This document shows, piece by piece, positions 5,080 through 15,218 of a stretch of 64,000 nucleotides of DNA. A program made the translations under genes and the position numbers. The DNA is from Streptomyces pristinaespiralis (GTDB taxonomy: Bacteria; Actinomycetota; Actinomycetes; Streptomycetales; Streptomycetaceae): assembly GCF_001278075.1 (NCBI RefSeq), contig NZ_CP011340.1:4712001-4776000 (forward strand), given 5' to 3'. Below the pieces are notes generated by a model. The model was not told the origin of the DNA, made no database searches, and worked only from the letters and a program-made list of their open reading frames with translations. Numbering within the stretch: position 1 is the stretch's first letter; every line of letters begins with the position of its first letter.

Positions 5080-5841
5080 ATGGCCGACGCACCGTACAAG
5101 CTGATCCTCCTCCGCCACGGCGAGAGCGAATGGAACGCGAAGAACCTGTTCACCGGCTGGGTGGACGTCAACCTCACGGAGAAGGGCGAGAAGGAGGCAG
5201 TCCGCGGCGGTGAGCTGCTCAAGGACGCCGGTCTGCTCCCCGACGTGCTCCACACCTCGCTCCAGAAGCGCGCCATCCGCACGGCGCAGCTCGCCCTGGA
5301 GTCCGCCGACCGCCACTGGATCCCGGTCCACCGGACCTGGCGGCTGAACGAGCGCCACTACGGCGCCCTTCAGGGCAAGGACAAGGCCCAGACGCTGGCC
5401 GAGTTCGGCGAGGAGCAGTTCATGCTCTGGCGCCGCTCGTACGACACGCCTCCGCCGGTCCTCGCCGACGACAACGAGTTCTCGCAGGCGAACGACGCCC
5501 GCTACCAGACCATCCCGAGCGAGCTGCGTCCCCGCACCGAGTGCCTCAAGGACGTCGTCGAGCGCATGCTGCCGTACTGGTACGACGGCATCGTCCCCGA
5601 CCTGCTCGCGGGCCGCACGGTCCTGATCGCCGCCCACGGCAACAGCCTGCGCGCGCTGGTCAAGCACCTGGACGGCATCTCCGACGCGGACATCGCCGGT
5701 CTGAACATCCCCACCGGGATCCCCCTCGTCTACGAGCTCGACGCCGACTTCAACCCGGTCAACCCGGGCGGCACCTACCTCGACCCGGACGCGGCGGCGG
5801 CCGCGATCGAGGCGGTCAAGAACCAGGGCAAGAAGAAGTAA
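5080..5841 (+). CDS. gpmA: 2,3-bisphosphoglycerate-dependent phosphoglycerate mutase
   Basis: The product is 253 aa, the usual length in Streptomyces. It interconverts 3- and 2-phosphoglycerate in glycolysis and gluconeogenesis. The histidine phosphatase motif [10 protein letters not shown] supplies the phosphorylated His13; Glu91 in [13 protein letters not shown] and His186 in [10 protein letters not shown] complete the active site. ATG 5080 matches the conserved N-terminus and has a -10 box 7 nt upstream. The last seven codons (KNQGKKK) form the core attachment site of the element that follows. That core is repeated at 14214-14237, so the final bases and the TAA stop come from the element, while the protein sequence is unchanged. 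Confidence 0.95.
5817..5840 (+). repeat. attL core: 24-bp direct repeat in the gpmA 3' end
   Basis: The 24 bases at 5817-5840 are identical to 14214-14237. They cover the last codons of gpmA up to the first two bases of its stop. Identity ends at both sides of the core (TAA stop here, TAG at the right copy). This is the pattern left by a tyrosine recombinase inserting an element into the 3' end of a gene. Confidence 0.85.
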
Positions 5842-5850
5842 GCCCGATGT

Positions 5851-5895
5851 ATCAGGCCTCCTACCAGCGGTTTCTCTGCTGGTAGGAGGCCTGAT
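5851..5895. terminator. Element-supplied gpmA terminator
   Basis: Perfect 18-bp inverted repeat (5851-5868 with 5878-5895) and 9-nt loop, starting 10 bp after the gpmA stop and lying inside the element. The loop region GCGGTTTCTC also occurs in the displaced chromosomal terminator at 14250-14290. Confidence 0.8.
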
Positions 5896-5903
5896 GTCAT
5901 GTC

Positions 5904-5923
5904 TGGGCCGTGCTTGGGCCGTG
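5904..5923 (+). repeat. Left arm-type integrase sites (2 x TGGGCCGTG)
   Basis: TGGGCCGTG occurs at 5904-5912 and 5915-5923, an 11-bp period, 64 bp inside the left core. The same motif pair with the same spacing is near the right end. Role as integrase arm sites is inferred. Confidence 0.5.
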
Positions 5924-5926
5924 ACG

Positions 5927-6121
5927 CTAGAGGTCCTGCCCCTTCCAGAGGCGGGCGGTGACTCGGAACGTGATGAGGAAGGCCCCGACAGCGACGGCGT
6001 ACACGGGAGCCTCCACCCAGATACCGAGGGCGCTACCCGCGCCCCCGACCACCGCGAACGGAAGTTCGCGGAGGGCGATGTCGATGGTTACGCGGAAGCG
6101 TGGCACCATAGTGTCCTCCAT
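5927..6121 (-). CDS. Small hydrophobic protein of the element
   Basis: The product is 64 aa. After an amphipathic start (MEDTMVPRFRVTIDIALREL) come two hydrophobic stretches, FAVVGGAGSALGIWV and APVYAVAVGAFLITF, and a charged tail WKGQDL, so a membrane protein with one or two helices is likely. A strong AGGAGG lies 5 nt before the first ATG at 6121; a second ATG five codons later has its own GGAGG. It lies between the left attachment site and int. I do not recognise a family. A link to element stability is only a guess. Confidence 0.5.
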   Translation of the reverse strand: MEDTMVPRFRVTIDIALRELPFAVVGGAGSALGIWVEAPVYAVAVGAFLITFRVTARLWKGQDL

Positions 6122-6165
6122 GGGTTCCTCCTAGTTGACTCAACAAAAAGGCGCTAATGGAGATC

Positions 6166-6195
6166 GAAGGCCACCCAGGGCAATGGGTGGCCTTC
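6166..6195. terminator. Hairpin terminator inside the element
   Basis: Perfect 12-bp inverted repeat (6166-6177 with 6184-6195) with a 6-nt loop. It would end minus-strand transcripts coming from int and the small basic ORF before they reach the 5927-6121 gene. Confidence 0.6.
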
Positions 6196-6268
6196 TCGCT
6201 TCCCCGCTAGCGCTCAGAACGATATTGCAGGGGTGTCACGCCGCGCAAATCCCTACATGATTGCGGAA

Positions 6269-6550
6269 TCAGCGCTTCCGCATAGGCGTCGAGTCGGCCG
6301 ACGCGCTAAGTTGCCGGGACTTCTTTTGAACCCTACTTCCGGCGCACTTTGTTTTCTTGCATCTGTGGGCCTTCTTCTGCGCTAAGGGCCGCCTTCGCGG
6401 TGACTGATCGGAAGGCTTCCCGGTCGGACGGCCGACCGGCCGGGCGGGAGGGAGATCGGCCGGGAAAGAGGCCGGGCGGGAGGGCGGCCGGACGGAAGGG
6501 AGATCGGCCGGGCGGGCGTCCGGGCAGATGGACGGGTGGATGGCTGTCAT
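6269..6550 (-). CDS. Possible small basic, Pro/Arg-rich protein
   Basis: A 93-codon ORF starts at 6550, with AGGAG 8 nt before the ATG. It encodes a Pro/Arg/Ala-rich protein (repeats of the RPPSRPASF type) with a very basic, Lys-rich tail containing two Cys. The ribosome site is good and the element transcribes this strand. Against it, low complexity in GC-rich DNA makes such ORFs common, and the 3' half is less GC-rich. If real, it would be translated from mRNA passing through the 67-bp repeats. No family recognised. Confidence 0.3.
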   Translation of the reverse strand: MTAIHPSICPDARPADLPSVRPPSRPASFPADLPPARPVGRPTGKPSDQSPRRRPLAQKKAHRCKKTKCAGSRVQKKSRQLSASADSTPMRKR

Positions 6551-6583
6551 CAGGACGTCTCCTTGCTCACTCATCTGCGGTTT

Positions 6584-6851
6584 CGTCGAAGATTTGCGCC
6601 CCGAAGGAACTTTCACGGATGGTGTTACCACTCTAGAAAGTCCGCAACTTCGTCGAAGATTTGCGCCCCGAAGGAACTTTCACGGATGGTGTTACCACTC
6701 TAGAAAGTCCGCAACTTCGTCGAAGATTTGCGCCCCGAAGGAACTTTCACGGATGGTGTTACCACTCTAGAAAGTCCGCAACTTCGTCGAAGATTTGCGC
6801 CCCGAAGGAACTTTCACGGATGGTGTTACCACTCTAGAAAGTCCGCAACTT
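6584..6851. repeat. Four perfect tandem copies of a 67-bp unit overlapping the int 3' end
   Basis: Copies occupy 6584-6650, 6651-6717, 6718-6784 and 6785-6851 with no differences seen. The stop codon of int (6834-6836) lies in the last copy, so the unit began as the int 3' end plus adjoining sequence and was amplified. Each unit contains the mini-palindrome CTTC-GTC-GAAG and the pair GAAAGT/ACTTTC. The perfect identity indicates recent expansion or active homogenisation. Iteron-like protein binding is possible but unproven. Confidence 0.95.
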
Positions 6852-8093
6852 CCTCGAGCCTCTGTCCCCTGGAGGAGTCAAGACAGAGGCCACAGCGTTA
6901 CGCGTACGCTCCTGGCTGGACGGCATCAGGTGCGCGTACACGCGGAGCGTCAGGCCCGGTTCCGAGTGGCCCAGGTACTCGGCGAGGGCCTTGATGTTCT
7001 CCCCCGCGTCCAGGAGCACCGAGGCGTAGAAGTGGCGGAGAGCATGCATGCCGTTCTCGCGGGACTCGGCGTACGGCTGGCCCCGCTCGGGCACGGGGAT
7101 GACGCAGGCCGCAGCCAACGCCGGCTTCCACGCCTCCTCGTTGAGCGACGTCCTCCGGACATGCCCGCCGCGCGGCCCGGTGAAGATGAGCTGCTTGGTC
7201 ACCGGAGGGCCGTCGGCAACCTTCCACGGCAAGGTGATCTCGACCGGTGGGAACCGCTTCATGTGGGCCCGCAGCGCATCGGCGACAGGGCCAGGAAGCG
7301 GCACGTCCCGCAGCTTGCCGCCCTTCGGTGGCGCGAACACGGCCTTGCTGCGGCTCAGCTTCAGTTGCTGGACCACGTGGAGCGTGTCCGACTCGAAGTC
7401 GATCGCGTCGACGGCCACGCCCAGGATCTCGCCCTGGCGGAGTCCGCAGCCGCCGCCCAGGTCGACCATGGCTTGGTAGCGCTCGGGCATGGCGGCCCGG
7501 ACGGCGAAGACCCTCTCGGGCGTCCACGGCACAACGCGCTTGTCGTCGACGGTCGGCGGCCGGACCGACCGAGCAGCACAAGGGTTCCGGGGAAGGTGGC
7601 CGTCGTCCACGGCCGCGCTGAGCGCCGCGCGCACGTTGGAGTAGATCGTCCGTGCGTACGACCCCCGGACGCCGTTCTCCTGCAACTGCCGCACCCAGTC
7701 CCGGATGTGCGCCGGCTGGAAGGAGCCGAGCGGACGCGAGCCGAGGTAGGGGAAGGCGTGCAGCCGTAGCTGCGACTCCATCGAGGCTTGGGTGTTCGGG
7801 TCGGCGCCCTGCGTGGCGACCCAGCGCTCGGCGTACTGCTGGAAGGTGATCCGGGCAGCACGTGGGTCGATGTACTGCCCGCGCGCCATGTCCGCCTCGA
7901 TGTGCGCCAGCCACTGATCAGCGAGCCGCTTCTGACGGTCGGGGAAGCTCTTGGACTTCTCCGTGCCGTCCGGGCCGACGTAGCGAGCGCGGTAGCGCAG
8001 GCCGGATCCGTAGCGCTCGGTCTTGACCTTGCGCACCTTCCCGTCCGGGCCGGTCTCGGTCCGGTACCAGCGGTCCTGAATGTGCCCGGCCAT
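6834..8093 (-). CDS. int: Tyrosine site-specific integrase
   Basis: The product is 419 aa and catalyses recombination between the 24-bp cores in gpmA. It has an N-terminal AP2/SAM-like DNA-binding part (to about residue 170) and a C-terminal phage-integrase domain. The catalytic set is visible: Arg219 in GGGCGLRQGE, His350 and Arg353 in MHALRH, His376 in YLGHSEPG and the nucleophile Tyr386 in TLRVYAHLM. The ATG at 8093 overlaps the xis stop (TGATG), implying translational coupling. The last codons lie in the 67-bp tandem repeat. All catalytic residues are present, so it is probably active. Confidence 0.93.
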   Translation of the reverse strand: MAGHIQDRWYRTETGPDGKVRKVKTERYGSGLRYRARYVGPDGTEKSKSFPDRQKRLADQWLAHIEADMARGQYIDPRAARITFQQYAERWVATQGADPNTQASMESQLRLHAFPYLGSRPLGSFQPAHIRDWVRQLQENGVRGSYARTIYSNVRAALSAAVDDGHLPRNPCAARSVRPPTVDDKRVVPWTPERVFAVRAAMPERYQAMVDLGGGCGLRQGEILGVAVDAIDFESDTLHVVQQLKLSRSKAVFAPPKGGKLRDVPLPGPVADALRAHMKRFPPVEITLPWKVADGPPVTKQLIFTGPRGGHVRRTSLNEEAWKPALAAACVIPVPERGQPYAESRENGMHALRHFYASVLLDAGENIKALAEYLGHSEPGLTLRVYAHLMPSSQERTRNAVASVLTPPGDRGSRKLRTF

Positions 8094-8332
8094 CAGGCGG
8101 CAGCCCCTTCCCGCAGGGACTCGACCCAGGCCTGGACGTCCGCAGGGTCGTAGCGCAGGTGCCGGCCGACCCGGAAGCCACGGGGACCGGTGCGCTTGCG
8201 GCGCCACTGGTAGCCCGTCTCGACGCTGGGCAGGTCGAACATCGCCACCAGGTCGTCAGGAGTCAGGTACCGCGACGGCAGACCACGCAGCTCGGAAGCC
8301 GCTTCCGCGACAGCGAGGCGACGGCTACCCAT
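8093..8332 (-). CDS. xis: Excisionase-type helix-turn-helix protein
   Basis: The product is 79 aa with a MerR/excisionase-type winged HTH: LTPDDLVAMFDLPSVETGYQWRRK... followed by VGRHLRYDPADVQAWVESL. Such proteins bend the attachment site DNA and favour excision by the integrase. I chose ATG 8332 because GGAAGGAG lies 9 nt upstream; the longer frame to 8482 is Pro/Ser-rich shadow sequence. It overlaps the end of rep by 8 nt and the start of int by 1 nt, forming the rep-xis-int operon. Confidence 0.85.
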   Translation of the reverse strand: MGSRRLAVAEAASELRGLPSRYLTPDDLVAMFDLPSVETGYQWRRKRTGPRGFRVGRHLRYDPADVQAWVESLREGAAA

Positions 8333-9100
8333 GGGTGGGTTCTCCTTCCGTTCCGGGAGCGGGTTCGAGGGTTTCGGCGAGCCAGGCTTCGGCGTCGGTG
8401 AGGCCGGTCCCGGCGTAGACCCAGTGCGCGAGGACGAGGGTCGTGTCCGGGTCGGTCCCGTCCGCTGACAGGGCCTGTGCACGGCGCCATTCGGCGCGGG
8501 AGTCGCGGAGGGCGCCGAGGGTGGTGGAGTAGCGGCGGGACTTGGTGGAGAAGTGGCCCCGGAAGCCGAGCATGTGGGCCCAGGCCCGCAGGCGGAGGTG
8601 TTCGAGGTCCTTGCGCGCGCCGAGGGTCCAGGCGGTGCGGATGAGCCGACGGGCGTGGTCGCTGATGTCGAGCTGGGCGAGCTCGGCGAGGAACCTCAGC
8701 GGCCGGTCGAGAGCTCCCGTGGCGGTCTCGGCGCCCTTGGTGGCGTACTTGGCGATGTACGCGGCGACGGCCCGCTCGGTCAGCTCCTGGCCGCCGTCGA
8801 AGTCGGCCGAGCGGATGGTGCGCACGTCGAGCTGACGGCCGAAGGCGAAGGCGTGGGCCCGGCCGTCGATGACCGGACCGTCCACGCGGGCGGCGGTGGC
8901 GGCGGCCCGGATGGCGTCGGTCAGCAGTTCGGCGGTGGCCCAGGCGGGAGGCGGGGTGTCGCCGCCCTCGGGACCGTCGAGGCGGATGACGGCGTGGAAG
9001 TGGACGGCCCCGCGCTTCTGGTACTCGGCGACCTTGGCGAAGGACACCCGGGCGTACTCGCGGAAGGTGCGTTGGGTCAGGCCGGCGCGCCTGGCATCGT
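8325..9100 (-). pseudogene. Replication initiator (RepSA-like), 5' truncated
   Basis: The C-terminal part of a rolling-circle initiator of the pSAM2/pIJ101-like group is present. RVSFAKVAEYQKRG is followed by AVHFHAVIRLDGP, which holds the HUH metal-binding motif, and later AAYIAKYATKGAE. Similarity begins at about 9093-9100. Upstream codons in this frame do not look like Rep, and the usual Cys-rich zinc-binding region of intact Rep proteins is absent. The 349-codon ORF that includes the upstream part is therefore probably not a normal protein. The 3' end overlaps xis. An internal start could give a short product, but initiation activity is unlikely. Confidence 0.7.
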
Positions 9101-9393
9101 TCGACGCATACTCGGCACCCCAGGCAGACCGCTGGGTAGCCATCGCTCTCCGCACCATCTCACCGGCGCTCGACTCCGACGCGTCGGACGAAGCGTGGAC
9201 GTGGCTGTACGAAGAGCGCGCCGAAACCCGCAGAGCCCTGATGCGCTCAGAGCCCTGCACGGTGACCATCACCCATGCCGACGTCTGCATCACCTGGACG
9301 ATCCGGCCAGTGATCTTCCTGCCCCTCGCACACCGGCAGGACGCCGAACTCCCAGCATGCGCACGAAGCTTCAAGCCCCACCGCGCAGACTGA
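9101..9393 (+). pseudogene. Possible 3' fragment of a plus-strand element gene abutting truncated rep
   Basis: The plus-strand frame ending at TGA 9391-9393 reads like a real protein from about 9101: WLYEERAETRRALMRSEP, then TWTIRPVIFLPLAHRQDAEL and PACARSF. Its composition is more protein-like than the opposite frame. It has no start codon of its own before it runs into the rep remnant, so it would be a truncated gene whose loss is linked to the rep truncation. The family is not recognised. This is a weak call based on codon and residue composition. Confidence 0.35.
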
Positions 9394-9816
9394 GTTACAA
9401 CTTTCTCTACTGGTTCAAGGCGGCTCGCTCCGCTCGCCGCGCGCGGCCCCGGCTCCAGCGCCGGGCCCCGACGCTCCTGTCTCCGCCCCGCTCCGGCCCC
9501 GGCTCCGCCGGCCGCGCGGCTGGAGCGAGCACACCTGATGCAGTGGACGGTAGCCCGCTGTGGCTGGGGCCGGTCGGCTCCACGGCTTTAGGCAGCCACC
9601 ATGGGGCGAGCCTCGAAGATCATGGCCCCAACGTCGTGCTTTACCGGGCAGGTCCACAGACTGCCCGACTCGCCGGAAGCTTACGGGGCCATGATCTCTC
9701 GCCCCATGGCAGCTCCCGCCCAAAGCCGGTTCACCGACCGCGTTGCCAGGCTGCCCCATGTAGGACGTTCTGTTAATCGATGTCCCGCCTAGGTGCTGGT
9801 ACGCCAGGATGCCGCT
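9394..9816. other. Structured non-coding region (possible single-strand origin)
   Basis: About 420 bp without a convincing gene. It contains nested inverted repeats: GCTCGCTCC at 9423-9431 with GGAGCGAGC at 9522-9530; 9601-9610 with 9698-9707 and 9618-9629 with 9685-9696; and inside the loop CGGGCAG 9645-9651 with CTGCCCG 9661-9667. Dense secondary structure beside a rolling-circle rep gene resembles the single-strand (sti-type) origins of Streptomyces plasmids. That role is inferred. Confidence 0.45.
9601..9707. repeat. Bipartite inverted repeat with nested hairpin
   Basis: Ten perfect pairs (9601-9610 with 9698-9707) and twelve perfect pairs (9618-9629 with 9685-9696), separated by a 7:1-nt asymmetric bulge, enclose a 55-nt loop. 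The loop holds a further 7-bp hairpin at 9645-9667. Confidence 0.8.
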
Positions 9817-10356
9817 ATGGCAGAACGCAGGGACGTTGAGTTGTACCGTCGCGACTGGGAGATGAGGCCAGATCAGAAGGAACTTGATCTGGCGCTGGGC
9901 TTCATGGTCCGGCAAGCAGCGATGTTGGAGTTCTTCCTGCATCAGACGATTCGCCGCCTGGTAGACGGGCGGTACGCGATCCTCGTGACGGCCGGCATGC
10001 AGGCGTCTGCCGTGCTTGATGCCGTCAAGCGCATCATCGACGTAGGGGCCGTCTCGGACGAAGCGGCTCAGGAGATGGCCGACATCTCGGGCAAGTGCCG
10101 CACTGCGTTTAGGGAGCGGAACAAGTACGTCCATGGCCTCTGTGTGACCGGAACGGAGAGCAGCGAGGTGTGGACGAACAACCGTAAGAACGGAGGGATA
10201 GATCAGCACCCGCTAGAGGCAGACAGGCTGATGGCGCTAGGGGCGGACTTCGCCCGGCTGAGCTCGCAAGTGACTGAGTGGTACCGGCTCCGTCTTGAAG
10301 GCCACCCGAGGCGGCACAGCCGACCGTCAGCGCCGCAAGAGGAAGCGCCGGAGTGA
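9817..10356 (+). CDS. Hypothetical protein with HEPN-like RX4H motif
   Basis: The product is 179 aa from ATG 9817 (a GTG at 9793 would add 8 residues), all-alpha in appearance. The segment CRTAFRERNKYVHG contains R-X4-H (RNKYVH), the signature of HEPN-fold ribonucleases found in toxins and antiphage proteins. The preceding helices (DLALGFMVRQAAMLEFFLHQ) suit a HEPN-type bundle. The gene is noticeably less GC-rich than the chromosome around it and sits in element cargo beside DUF3800 and Mrr genes. RNase activity is inferred from one motif. It could instead be an unrelated helical protein. Confidence 0.55.
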   Translation: MAERRDVELYRRDWEMRPDQKELDLALGFMVRQAAMLEFFLHQTIRRLVDGRYAILVTAGMQASAVLDAVKRIIDVGAVSDEAAQEMADISGKCRTAFRERNKYVHGLCVTGTESSEVWTNNRKNGGIDQHPLEADRLMALGADFARLSSQVTEWYRLRLEGHPRRHSRPSAPQEEAPE

Positions 10357-10802
10357 GCGTGGAGCCAGCCTGTCAAGACGGCAGGTGGCGGTTGACATCG
10401 ATGGCCGACATCAACAGGCACGGACACTGGCGACCAACGCCGAACCTCGCCGGACGATCAGCCGAGGACGCCCACGGGTTGACTGATGTCGCCGAGTCCC
10501 CATGATCGACCTGACAAGGATGAGGACAGACCGCAAGACTCATGCCCGGAGGGGCGTCGTCCCCGTCGATGGACGACGCCTCTCCGGCTTTACTTGGCCA
10601 TTGAGAATCCGTCGACCTGGCAGGCCCAATCACCCTGGTCGGACGATCAACACACCACGTCTTTAATGGATCACCTGTTCGATATAAAATGGGATCGAAA
10701 GGTGCAGCTCGCTTGACGCCTTGTGCGTCATCGGGTTGCATGGCTAGTGGCCAGTGAAAAGGGGTCCAGGGGACCTCTTCCCGTTTCGGGATAGCTGGCC
10801 TC
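10357..10802. other. Cargo intergenic region with one hairpin
   Basis: 446 bp between the HEPN-like gene and the convergent DUF3800 gene. Apart from the hairpin at 10546-10587 I see no gene. The short ORF at 10486-10716 has no ribosome site and no family resemblance. GC content falls locally (around 10670-10700), as in imported DNA. Confidence 0.5.
10546..10587. terminator. Hairpin terminator between convergent cargo genes
   Basis: 17-bp arms (10546-10562 with 10571-10587) with one G-T wobble and an 8-nt loop. It lies between the HEPN-like gene and the DUF3800 gene and would serve both directions. Confidence 0.65.
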
Positions 10803-11459
10803 TTACTTTGCCAGCCCCCACGGCTTGAACGTTGACTTCAGCGTGGGTTCGATGCTGGACGTGTACCAGGGGCACTTGCGGTCTTCCAGCACTCTCTGTG
10901 TGGCCCACAGAGCATAGTCGGCAACCTGAACGCCCCAGGAAGTTGCCGCGTTCCAGACACACAGAACGATCTCCCGGTCGGTCGCCGACTGCTGGCAAAC
11001 GTCCGCGAGGGCATGCCGGGCGCTCCCTTCCTTCTTGTTGGTCGTCAGGGAAGCTGCAATGACGTAGACAGTGTCACCCGGCGAGCTGACTCGTTGCACG
11101 ATCTCTTTGAAGTGCAAGTACCAGGCCAGCTTATAGAGCCGCATGGGGCCGGCTGCGCGGACATAGGGGTACGCGTTCTGCTTCGCCAGGAACGTCGTGT
11201 CGAAGCGTGGAGCCTGGGACTCAATGAGCTCAAAGACCTCGCTCCGGGTCGCATGGGAGTCATTCTTCGCGTGCAGGCCCTGCGGCAGCGAGACACCTCG
11301 TCGCTCCAACTGGCACCTCAACTGGAGTCCCTCCCAAAGCGAGTGGCCGTGGTCCCCCTCGAAGACGGCGGTTCCGAAGCCAAAGTACCTACTTGCGCCA
11401 GGGGATCCCGACATGTCTAGGTCGCCTGTCTCGTCGGCGTACATGTAGATCTCGGCCAC
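10803..11459 (-). CDS. DUF3800 domain protein
   Basis: The product is 218 aa from GTG 11459, which has GGAGG 6-7 nt upstream; the longer frame to 11546 is not needed. The opening YMYADETGDLDMSG is the acidic D-E-(T/S)-G motif of DUF3800, and later ATSWGVQVADYALWATQRV matches its C-terminal D-containing helix. DUF3800 proteins have an RNase H-like fold prediction and recur in defence islands and prophages, but no activity is established to my knowledge. Here it is convergent with the HEPN-like gene and divergent from the HTH gene within the element cargo. Confidence 0.75.
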   Translation of the reverse strand: MAEIYMYADETGDLDMSGSPGASRYFGFGTAVFEGDHGHSLWEGLQLRCQLERRGVSLPQGLHAKNDSHATRSEVFELIESQAPRFDTTFLAKQNAYPYVRAAGPMRLYKLAWYLHFKEIVQRVSSPGDTVYVIAASLTTNKKEGSARHALADVCQQSATDREIVLCVWNAATSWGVQVADYALWATQRVLEDRKCPWYTSSIEPTLKSTFKPWGLAK

Positions 11460-11583
11460 GGACAACCTCCGTCCTTCTACTCCCGGTTCGCCTCGGAGTG
11501 GGCATCTGTTGCCTGCAACTCCGTTCATACGAAGATATGTTGGCACGCCTCAGTGGCACTTTGAGCGCGCAATGGCCGCATCT

Positions 11584-11600
11584 GTCCACGTAGAGTGGAC
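11584..11600. promoter_or_regulatory. Palindrome at the start of the HTH gene
   Basis: GTCCAC-gtaga-GTGGAC ends 2 bp before the GTG start at 11603, and a further GTGGAC follows at the start codon. Position suggests an autoregulatory operator; the binding protein is inferred. Confidence 0.35.
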
Positions 11601-11602
11601 GT

Positions 11603-12193
11603 GTGGACGAGGTAGCTGGCAAAAGTTCATTGATCAAGAAAACGGCAGAAACACACTTCGACCCTGCGCGACCGTGGCCATGGGTCTCGTACGACGATCC
11701 CGCCTGGCCCCTTGAACCTTGGGTCGCCATGAACGAAGAGGATCTTGCCGATGCGGCCGTCCGGTTCGGGATTTGGTACTTGCGCGGGGGCATAGAGGGA
11801 ATGACCACGCTGAGGGCGACTTCCCTGTTCGAGGATGCTGTACGTCGAGTAGTCCCAGACGTCGTGGCTGAGGCTCGTACCCGGCGCTATTCCTGGGGGC
11901 GTATCGCCCAGTGTTTCGGTGTGGGACGAACAGCAGCCCAGAAGCGCTTCGGCCAGCACCCAGATGCCCTCAGGGCGCAGGCGCTAGAAGACCAGTACCG
12001 CTGGATGGCTGAGTACCTCTACGCCGCCGAGCGCGACGCCCGAAGCGCGTACCCCGACACGGCCGAGGTTGCAGCGACGCGCGAACGGTGCATCCGCCGC
12101 CGCAGGGGGCATGTCCTGGACCCACTGGACAGCCTGCCCAAGGTCGTATCGCGGAAGCGACGGGCAGGCCGAACGGACATTGACGACGCCTGA
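11603..12193 (+). CDS. Helix-turn-helix protein of the element cargo
   Basis: The product is 196 aa. The segment RRYSWGRIAQCFGVGRTAAQKRFG is the sigma-region-4-like HTH seen in many small Streptomyces DNA-binding proteins (pattern SWxxIxxxLGVxxxAAxxRF). The acidic, Trp-rich N-terminus and basic C-terminus are not recognised. GTG 11603 has no clear Shine-Dalgarno, and a palindrome sits directly before it, which would fit a leaderless, self-regulated gene. It precedes the Mrr-type endonuclease gene on the same strand by 268 bp, so it may control it. The start site is uncertain. Confidence 0.6.
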   Translation: MDEVAGKSSLIKKTAETHFDPARPWPWVSYDDPAWPLEPWVAMNEEDLADAAVRFGIWYLRGGIEGMTTLRATSLFEDAVRRVVPDVVAEARTRRYSWGRIAQCFGVGRTAAQKRFGQHPDALRAQALEDQYRWMAEYLYAAERDARSAYPDTAEVAATRERCIRRRRGHVLDPLDSLPKVVSRKRRAGRTDIDDA

Positions 12194-12461
12194 TCATTCG
12201 GACCAGCACTCGGCCACGCTACGCATGAGACTTCCATGTGCCATAACAGCGCCAGACAGAGCTGGTCACAAGGGGAACTACAACTGCTGGCAGGCGCCGA
12301 AGCGAGCGGACTCCGACAGCGGCAGGGCTGTAACGCCGGCGCGTTGAGTAGGCCGTGCACACTGCGGGCCCGGACGGGGTGACGCCTCTAGGACGGGTGA
12401 TTTTGCGAGGTGAGAGGGGAATGCAGCTCAGGGGGTAGCCAAGCCAGGGGAGGGCGAGCAG

Positions 12462-14060
12462 GTGGCGCAGCGCGGCAGAGATCGAGGTAGCGAGTACCAG
12501 CATCAGCAAGCTCTCCGGCGGGCCCAGGAGCAACGGGCGCGGCAAGCGGAGCGGGAACGCAAGGCCGCTGAGGCGGCCAGCAAACGGCAGGAACGCGAGC
12601 GGAAGGCCGCGTATCAGGAGCAGCAGGCCGAACAGGCGCAGGTGCGCACGATCGGAGTCGAGCACGAGGTCAAGCAGCTGGGGCAGTTGCTCCGTGACGC
12701 GTTGGTCGGCGATCCGCCAACGACCTTTGAGCGCCGGCGGAGGACGCACACGCCAAGAGAGTTAGACGAGCGTCCTTGGTCTCGTCGGGAACCTTCCCCC
12801 CGTTGGGAGGAGTTCGCACCACCGGAGCCCGGTGGTCTGGCTGCTGTTCTGGGCCTTGGCAGGAAGCGCTATGAAGCTGAGGTTGCCGCGGCGCGTGTGC
12901 GGTTCGGCGAGGCACAAGAACGCCACAGCCGAGCAGAAGAGAAGCGGCTGGCAACACTGGAGCGGAAGCGTGCCGAGCACCGCCAGGCCGAAGCGCAAGC
13001 TCTTGACGAGGTGGTCACCTTCAACCGGAAGTTGGACGAGGAGCGCGAGGCTTACAGGGCCGGGGAGCCCACGGCGGTCGAGGCTCATCTTGGGGCCGTT
13101 CTGGATGCATCGGAGTATCCACTGGGCTTCCCGCACGAGCATCGAATCGCCTTTCGCCCTGCCACCGGTGATGTACTCGTTGAGATCCACTTGCCTCCGG
13201 AGGCGATCGTTCCTACCGTGCGGGGCTACCGGTACGTGAAGAACCGAGACGAGACGACAGTGCTGCCTCGTCCGGAGAAGGAGCGCAAGGAGATCTACGC
13301 CTCCGTCCTGGCGCAAGTCGCTCTACGGACAGTCCACGAGGTCCTGACGAGTGATCCGGACCGGATCGTCAATGGCGTGATCCTGAATGGTCATGTGAAA
13401 ACCATTGACCGGGCCACGGGCCAGGAGGTCTCACCCTGTCTGGTGACGCTCAGCGCCAGCAGGGAGCAGTTCGGGAAGCTTCGTCTCAGTCAGGTTGATC
13501 CAGCGCAGTGCCTCAGAGGGCTCAATGCCCTGGTGTCTCCCAACCCCTACGATCTCGAACCGATTCGTCCCATCGTCGAGTTCAACCTGTCCAAGTACAG
13601 ACTGATGGACAGCATGGATGTAGTCGCCGGCCTAGACAGCAGGCCCGTGCTGGTGAAGCTGACGCCCACCGAGTTCGAGCACCTGATTCGCCAACTGTTT
13701 GAGGCGATCGGCATGGAGGCCTGGAACACCCAGGCGTCCAAAGACGAGGGCGTTGATGCAGTCGCCGTCAGCAAGGACCCCGTCTTCAACGGTGAGTGCA
13801 TCATTCAGGCGAAGCGCTACAGCAAGCTGGTCGGTGTTGAGTCCGTCCAGGCGCTCGCCGGCGTGGTGGAGCACAAGCGTGCTGCCAAGGGGGTCCTGAT
13901 CACCACATCGTGGTTCGGCAGGGCCAGCCACGACTTTGCCCGCCAGCATGGCCGGCTCCAGCTCATCGAAGGGCCGGAACTGAAGTACCTGATCAAGGAA
14001 CACCTTGGCAAGGATGTGATTCCTGGCCCGGTCCCCCCGAAGAGGCGCCCCTCACGCTGA
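12462..14060 (+). CDS. Mrr-type restriction endonuclease with coiled-coil N-terminus
   Basis: The product is 532 aa. Residues about 10-65 and 140-200 are Glu/Arg/Ala/Gln-rich heptad sequences predicted as coiled coils. The C-terminal ~120 residues form an Mrr_cat (PD-(D/E)xK) nuclease: LTPTEFEHLIRQLFEAIGM, Asp432 in DEGVDAVA, and Gln449-x-Lys451 in CIIQAKRY, followed by the usual VQALAGVV and VLITTSWF strands. Mrr enzymes cut modified DNA (type IV restriction), giving protection against phage or plasmid DNA. GTG 12462 has GGGGAGGG upstream. The middle domain is unassigned. It is the last cargo gene before the right end. Confidence 0.8.
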   Translation: MAQRGRDRGSEYQHQQALRRAQEQRARQAERERKAAEAASKRQERERKAAYQEQQAEQAQVRTIGVEHEVKQLGQLLRDALVGDPPTTFERRRRTHTPRELDERPWSRREPSPRWEEFAPPEPGGLAAVLGLGRKRYEAEVAAARVRFGEAQERHSRAEEKRLATLERKRAEHRQAEAQALDEVVTFNRKLDEEREAYRAGEPTAVEAHLGAVLDASEYPLGFPHEHRIAFRPATGDVLVEIHLPPEAIVPTVRGYRYVKNRDETTVLPRPEKERKEIYASVLAQVALRTVHEVLTSDPDRIVNGVILNGHVKTIDRATGQEVSPCLVTLSASREQFGKLRLSQVDPAQCLRGLNALVSPNPYDLEPIRPIVEFNLSKYRLMDSMDVVAGLDSRPVLVKLTPTEFEHLIRQLFEAIGMEAWNTQASKDEGVDAVAVSKDPVFNGECIIQAKRYSKLVGVESVQALAGVVEHKRAAKGVLITTSWFGRASHDFARQHGRLQLIEGPELKYLIKEHLGKDVIPGPVPPKRRPSR

Positions 14061-14092
14061 GACCGCCGGGCGGCCCCTCCAGGCCGGGGATC

Positions 14093-14111
14093 TGGGCCGT
14101 CCCTGGGCCGT
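14093..14111 (+). repeat. Right arm-type integrase sites (2 x TGGGCCGT)
   Basis: TGGGCCGT at 14093-14100 and 14104-14111, the same 11-bp period and orientation as the pair near the left end, about 103 bp inside the right core. Role as integrase arm sites is inferred. Confidence 0.5.
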
Positions 14112-14213
14112 CCGAGGTCGCTCGACAGTGGCCAATGACGACCAACGTCGACCACCAGGCGCGCGTTTGTACTGTCCCTGACCAGTAAAAACCCAGCTCA
14201 CCAAGATGCCCGG

Positions 14214-14237
14214 CAAGAACCAGGGCAAGAAGAAGTA
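14214..14237 (+). repeat. attR core: 24-bp direct repeat
   Basis: Identical to 5817-5840. It is followed by G, completing a TAG stop, and then by the displaced gpmA terminator, so this side carries the original chromosomal flank. Confidence 0.85.
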
Positions 14238-14249
14238 GCACGACCTGAA

Positions 14250-14290
14250 CGAGCCCCCTGCCTGCGGTTTCTCCGCGAGCAGGGGGCTCG
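14250..14290. terminator. Original gpmA terminator, displaced 8.4 kb
   Basis: 12-bp arms (14250-14261 with 14279-14290) with an inner GCGG/CCGC stem (14264-14267 with 14273-14276). It starts 12 bp after the remnant gpmA stop at the right core. Confidence 0.75.
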
Positions 14291-14325
14291 TTGCTGTCCT
14301 GGGCCTGCTCGAGGCCCGGGCGGTC

Positions 14326-15084
14326 CTAGAAGCCGTCCTGCTCGATCAGTGAGCCGTCGGGACCCATTCTGTAGACCCGCGGTGGCCCCATCGCCTCCAT
14401 CAGCCGCCGCCGCTCGGCCTCCTTCTCCGCGGGATCGAGGTCGTCCGGGTCCCGCACGAGGAAGCCATGGAGTTCGATGCTCTCCGCCTCGACGTCCTCA
14501 AGCTCGGGAAGCCCCTCCTGGATGAAGCCGCAGAGCGCGCGCAGCGCGTCCTCGGCGAGCTCCAGAGGATGGAACGGCAGGGCGTACGGCTCCCCTTCCT
14601 CACCCGGCCAGGGAACGACGTCCGCCGGACGCTGCCCGGCCCAGTAGGGAAGCTCGAAGGGCAGCGGTTCCCCGATGTTCTCGATGATCCCGTGGTCGGG
14701 GGACACGCTCAGGGACCGGACGAGCCGCCCGTCCTCCCAGACGGCGAAGGCGAGCCAGTCGACCACGCTGTGCATGGCGTGCAGGACCAGCCGGCGGCCG
14801 GCGCTCGCCGCGACGAGATGTTCCGGGAGCTTCGACGGGGCATCGATCATCACGCGCCGATCGCAGACGATCTCGACGCCCGGCCAGCTCGCGGCATAAG
14901 CCGTTCCGTCGGAGGGATAGACGCCTTCGTAGAGGTCCGAGCCCTCGCACTCCTCGATGTCGCAGCCCGGGTTGAGACGCCGCATCATCGCCGATGTCCG
15001 CTCCCGGTCCGCCGTTCCCACGTGCCGCAGCAGGTCCGGCACATCGCCGTCGGCGTACACGATCAGACCGGTCTTCGCTCCCAA
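14326..15084 (-). CDS. DUF6928-family protein
   Basis: The product is 252 aa, soluble and acidic, without signal or membrane segments. I recognise the conserved opening GAKTGLIVYADGDVPDLLR, the internal WLAFAVWEDGRLVRSLSVSP and the end DGSLIEQDGF from a Streptomyces family of unknown function (DUF6928). The start is TTG 15084, with GGGGAGGGGC upstream. It is the first chromosomal gene to the right of the element. Function unknown. Confidence 0.7.
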   Translation of the reverse strand: MGAKTGLIVYADGDVPDLLRHVGTADRERTSAMMRRLNPGCDIEECEGSDLYEGVYPSDGTAYAASWPGVEIVCDRRVMIDAPSKLPEHLVAASAGRRLVLHAMHSVVDWLAFAVWEDGRLVRSLSVSPDHGIIENIGEPLPFELPYWAGQRPADVVPWPGEEGEPYALPFHPLELAEDALRALCGFIQEGLPELEDVEAESIELHGFLVRDPDDLDPAEKEAERRRLMEAMGPPRVYRMGPDGSLIEQDGF

Positions 15085-15168
15085 AGCCCCTCCCCGGACG
15101 CGCTCGATGGTGCCCGCAACGTACCCCCTCCCTCCGACAACACGGGCCGCCGAGCGGCGGTCGGCACC

Positions 15169-15218
15169 ACGTACGACGAGGGCCCCGTCCGCGAACGGAC
15201 GGGGCCCTCGTCGTACGT
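15169..15218. terminator. Long hairpin terminator
   Basis: Perfect 23-bp inverted repeat (15169-15191 with 15196-15218) with a CGAA loop, just downstream of the Cys-rich peptide gene on the minus strand. Confidence 0.8.

Follow-up and report, generated by a model that had tools for sequence, protein, structure and literature searches.

A 64,000-nucleotide stretch of the Streptomyces pristinaespiralis genome (contig NZ_CP011340.1, positions 4,712,001 to 4,776,000; hereafter the window, in whose coordinates all features are given) very probably holds a decayed actinomycete integrative and conjugative element (AICE), probably not self-transmissible, that integrated at the 3' end of gpmA through an arm-binding integrase with strand exchange in the last codons of the gene. 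The element spans ~8.4 kb between two 24-bp repeats and comprises an integrase gene (int), an xis-like gene, a truncated RepSA gene and cargo.

The target gene (5080..5841, plus strand) encodes a 2,3-bisphosphoglycerate-dependent phosphoglycerate mutase of 253 amino acids (TIGR01258; NCBIfam NF010718, 463.9 bits against a cut-off of 366) and was matched at E 1e-60 in 390 of 392 genomes of the genus. Its last codons and stop lie inside the left attachment site, attL. The attL core (5817..5840, plus strand) leads into TAA and a hairpin, while the attR core (14214..14237, plus strand) leads into the displaced TAG and another hairpin. Both read CAAGAACCAGGGCAAGAAGAAGTA, a direct repeat with a start-to-start distance of 8,397 bp. 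A genome-wide search at up to three mismatches located this word at the same two places only within the 8,532,592-bp genome, and the reversed control pattern gave 0 matches. The original prediction, made from the letters of the window, had singled out these identical blocks as the ends of an integrative element, to be doubted if the repeat proved common elsewhere in the genome; it is unique to its two sites.

The same prediction held that the integrase recognises a protein-coding 3' end and proposed searching its homologues for a position beside gpmA. Such a position is the rule among the relatives, of which the best 80 of 578 named loci were kept, each with its fetched locus. gpmA was present in 64 of these 80 loci with its 3' end facing that of int, in 63 of them at 67-1852 nt between the two matches, and in every one of the 35 loci at an integrase identity of at least 88%. 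At L071, gpmA lies 8.4 kb from int, which abuts a gpmA-type attR core; this probably represents a tandem insertion of two stacked elements. Hosts with a gpmA locus include Streptomyces, Kitasatospora, Streptantibioticus and Catenulispora. In an integrase tree of 140 rows, the gpmA label (65 rows) required 3 label changes, compared with a shuffled mean of 46.4, and the window integrase fell within a starred clade of 37 rows, all gpmA (quick tree). Tree grouping, on the one hand, and gpmA core and arm offsets, on the other, both place it in a gpmA-specific integrase clade, in line with the proposed recognition of this gene end.

On both sides of the core, repeat comparison revealed pairs of TGGGCCGT spaced 11 nt apart. 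The P' arm (5904..5922, plus strand) has copies at 5904 and 5915 (+86 and +97 from core start 5818), and the P arm (14093..14111, plus strand) at 14093 and 14104 (-122 and -111 from core start 14215). Siblings carry the pairs at the same offsets, some with one base changed, and several members of a second integrase group have TGGGCCCT, TGGGACCT or TGGAACCT in their arm repeats. In a family test with 139 different integrases and 154 control stretches (score at least 14 of 16), an arm pair was found within 1500 nt 3' of int at 130 of 136 loci versus 9 of 154 controls, and within 60 nt at 89 of 139 versus 0 of 154. We regard these repeats as putative arm-type binding sites of the integrase.

It is extremely improbable that the two cores are a chance repeat, or an ancient duplication of the gpmA tail, and not an att pair. 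The core is indeed Lys-rich coding sequence, and with two mismatches allowed, many other genomes contain core-like words (1 to 3 control matches), but the own genome lacks a third copy, gpmA and the integrase are linked across relatives, and the arm repeats are conserved. We rejected this explanation on the combination of core uniqueness, integrase linkage and conserved arms.

As att cores, the 24-bp repeats hold up with respect to duplication and uniqueness, but they are not themselves the exchange region. Of 15 loci that have a second core, 13 carry C at core position 5 in the element-derived half of attR, in contrast to the A of gpmA (search allowing two mismatches; exceptions L066 and L069), as do 15 of 16 in another locus set (exception L148); the window's own attR has A there. 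Because the element half of attR reads C where gpmA reads A, exchange is placed to the right of position 5. Genome G069 narrows the interval further. Its gpmA element is present a second time (11,073 bp, 99.96% identity), at a secondary site whose match to the core is partial (L248, G069:C1:4031500-4047500), and in the hybrid ends of this copy the host sequence reaches core position 9 at one end and starts at position 13 at the other. This copy, a sign of mobility in a relative, puts the exchange between core positions 9 and 13, which by analogy corresponds to about 5826-5830 in the window.

The consequences for the protein vary between hosts. The original prediction had the protein restored exactly while TAG is swapped for TAA, which is true of the window but does not extend to all relatives, in some of which integration alters the tail. 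In G370 (L152, L090), the attL tail reads GKKK before the stop and the displaced attR tail GKK, and L073 shows the reverse, with GKK at attL and GKKK displaced.

Directly after the gpmA stop, the element brings a hairpin with an 18-bp perfect inverted repeat (5851..5895; repeat comparison), which is conserved in relatives and may terminate gpmA transcription. The hairpin after attR (14251..14289) reads from its sequence as the displaced host gpmA hairpin. A consensus terminator scan of the plus strand listed neither of them, so that of the displaced gpmA terminator expected to the right of attR, the hairpin is present but the terminator call is not. Relatives inserted elsewhere, among them those at PMT, nusG, icd and the rlmN 5' end, have a hairpin like that of the element in the same position. 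The motif ACC(A/T)G stands where expected in 105 of 136 loci, across all site classes, compared with 11 of 241 control stretches, and all 7 flanking positions can pair in 85 of those 105 loci, compared with 4 of 241 controls. Beyond the gene tail, the element end brings a hairpin and arm-type repeats common to relatives at other genes. The competing account, in which the hairpin behind the core is merely the host gpmA terminator captured by attP and no part of the recombination site, has an appreciable probability, if one below even; it is countered by the hairpin being shared with relatives at the rlmN, PMT, nusG and icd sites. At L267, L268 and other loci of the glutamine synthetase class, the same arm repeats are accompanied by a hairpin that is strong but of another kind and lacks ACC(A/T)G.

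An empty site was expected to run straight from the gpmA core into the host hairpin. In the closest species found (G173; gpmA 98.9% identical in DNA, GpmA 100%), the 19.9 kb fetched at gpmA contain no match to int, and gpmA ends in TAG followed by a hairpin, in agreement with this expectation. The sequence after its stop differs from the right flank of the window, and other genes lie between gpmA and the conserved downstream genes; the region 3' of gpmA varies between genomes. The right flank (14238-15200, mostly the DUF6928 gene at 14326-15084) was matched in 37 of 392 genus genomes, the own genome included. Among the 29 loci fetched of the 36 non-own genomes, gpmA or its core was absent from the fetched flanks. 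The predicted empty site is therefore matched by the retained TAG in an int-free relative but not by an exact junction with the window's right flank. Int-free relatives with the same 8.4 kb, which would have spoken against a mobile origin, did not appear, the nearest genome found having no int there.

Between the cores, the three components named in the original prediction were recovered. int (6834..8093, minus strand) encodes a complete tyrosine integrase of 419 amino acids with three Pfam domains (PF00589, PF22022, PF14659), whose residues R219, K245, H350, R353, H376 and Y386, which we take to be catalytic, are invariant in 140 aligned rows (window included). The xis-like gene (8093..8332, minus strand; 79 amino acids) belongs to HTH_17 (PF12728) and is a putative excisionase gene. 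The rep remnant (8325..9143, minus strand; PF20199) covers only the C-terminal part of RepSA, corresponding to profile positions 171-436 of 438.

These genes, together with the flanking att repeats, are features of an AICE. The scanned element proteins included no other replication initiator (RepSA, RepAM or Prim-Pol) beside the partial RepSA, and all PF01580 matches of the own genome, which would mark an FtsK/SpoIIIE-type Tra, lie outside the element. No phage gene was found in the scanned element proteins with Pfam/NCBIfam, and the 33 phage records matching int are all below 60% identity. Full RepSA and FtsK-type Tra occur inside seven gpmA elements of which both ends are known (G092, G325, G016, G104, G378, G029 and G023); in G065, where a single end was located, the two lie beside it. 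Because sibling gpmA elements possess both, we consider the window element a decayed AICE without tra, and therefore AICE-derived but not itself an AICE; judged from the sequence, the N-terminal part of RepSA is lost and tra is absent. Core-to-core lengths of the elements examined range from 1.4 to 18.8 kb. In the five elements of the second integrase group (G254, G379, G069, G370, G346; 67-71% identity), no RepSA match was found, and FtsK matches were weak and confined to G254 and G069. Separately, two RepSA elements (84-86%), L242 in G254 and L243 in G300, combine a gpmA-type P arm and core half with an integrase only 26% identical, which suggests integrase swapping.

Decay could have gone further, leaving a fixed genomic island that entered by site-specific integration, whose int or att is now dead and which is inherited vertically. 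We rate this reading as a serious competitor, though somewhat the less probable course. RepSA is cut short and tra absent, what remains at related sites in G019, G300, G266 and G074 is 1.4-2.9 kb long, with both cores but without a complete int, and int runs into a recent-looking tandem repeat unseen in relatives. This repeat (6582..6849) extends over the int stop and is made up of a 67-bp unit in four identical copies; repeat comparison found the unit neither at another place in the own genome nor in any fetched relative. On the other hand, int and the xis-like gene have open reading frames, that of int over its full length and with the catalytic residues retained; the two cores do not differ, and each arm pair is exact, so that int may still be active and the element mobile.

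Several observations weigh against the proposed decayed AICE at gpmA. The T-run of the element hairpin is weak, in line with the terminator scan passing it over, and the 29 right-flank loci contained no exact empty site. The putative arm function is argued from position and conservation. With neither tra nor an N-terminal Rep part apparent in the element, transfer would need help, and no excised form was seen.

The remainder of the element is cargo: a 179-amino-acid protein (9817..10356, plus strand) and a 196-amino-acid protein (11603..12193, plus strand), both without a family match in profile searches, a DUF3800 protein (10803..11462, minus strand; PF12686, 27.6 bits, cut-off 21), and an Mrr-type type IV restriction enzyme of 532 amino acids (12462..14060, plus strand; PF04471) that matches PADLOC PDLC03663 mREase_IV across its length at 1185.5 bits. 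None of the four cargo open reading frames (ORFs) has a match in 31 related loci (50% coverage, E 1e-15). Beside attL lies a 64-amino-acid hydrophobic ORF (5927-6121, minus strand) with no Pfam or NCBIfam match.

For the decayed AICE, we propose the following course of integration. The tyrosine integrase most likely binds the arm repeats, which flank the attP core on either side as pairs spaced 11 nt apart, and strands would be exchanged inside the last gpmA codons, between core positions 9 and 13. attP would supply its own gene tail, stop and hairpin, leaving GpmA intact with TAG turned into TAA and the element hairpin in place of the host hairpin after gpmA, and xis would drive excision. Elements whose integrase is 60-78% identical also retain the arm repeats but lie at gene ends of rlmN, nusG, icd, miaA, glutamine synthetase and PMT (L075, for example, lies at icd); their cores would be matched to these other conserved gene ends. 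Tentatively, and with slightly less than even confidence, we suggest that one actinobacterial integrase lineage has moved a near-constant attP cassette among at least seven gene ends (gpmA, rlmN, glutamine synthetase, PMT, nusG, icd and miaA) by swapping the core alone. The cassette would consist of the 11-nt-spaced arm pairs and the ACC(A/T)G hairpin (the latter not at glutamine synthetase), the hairpin being a working part of att that gains a T-run when it also ends the host transcript.

Vectors might use an att site in a conserved Streptomyces core gene as a landing site. With naturally occurring attL/attR pairs and graded relatives at other genes, target change by a tyrosine integrase becomes directly testable, and the element exchanges the end of a glycolytic gene (its tail, its stop codon and the hairpin behind it), with a one-lysine protein change in some hosts. 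Site, resolved att anatomy and retargeting series together are more useful than a lone island.

Prophage e14 and phage 21 sit at the 3' end of E. coli icd and carry a replacement 3' end for this central-metabolism gene. The window element resembles them in its replacement gene end, and its relative L075 is likewise found at icd; it differs in its unrelated host and other target gene, and is no phage as far as seen.

Like AICEs of the pSAM2 type (PMC3218068, PMC9513070), the window element has a tyrosine integrase, an xis-like gene, a RepSA-type rep and direct repeats at its ends, and its gpmA siblings share full RepSA and FtsK-type Tra with them; unlike AICEs, the window copy lacks tra, retains only part of rep, and targets gpmA and not a tRNA gene. 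Decayed AICEs are described in PMC9513070, which assigns 14 of 51 AICE sites to protein-coding genes, rlmN and a phospholipid carrier-dependent glycosyltransferase being among those named; our integrase relatives at rlmN and PMT fall into two gene types also among these sites. According to PMC3218068, the vast majority of tyrosine-integrase AICEs use tRNA genes, with the pSLS subfamily as the exception, a likeness by site description only; pSLS sites in S. laurentii are given as locus tags only (PMC4891635). gpmA as an integration site was not found in the literature searched, the supplementary site tables of PMC9513070 and PMC3218068 lying outside it; neither 'gpm' nor 'phosphoglycerate' occurs in the main text of PMC9513070 or in PMC3218068 as covered here. 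The TIGER/Islander database (PMC12424338) may hold such islands. PAISt of S. turgidiscabies (PMC4057263) also integrates at the 3' end of a protein-coding gene, bacA, but differs in its 8-bp palindromic site, its target and its nature as a large virulence island. As an AICE derivative in the 3' end of a gene, the window element is of a known kind; what it adds to these systems are the paired arm repeats, the exchange point taken from G069 and the retargeted integrase relatives.
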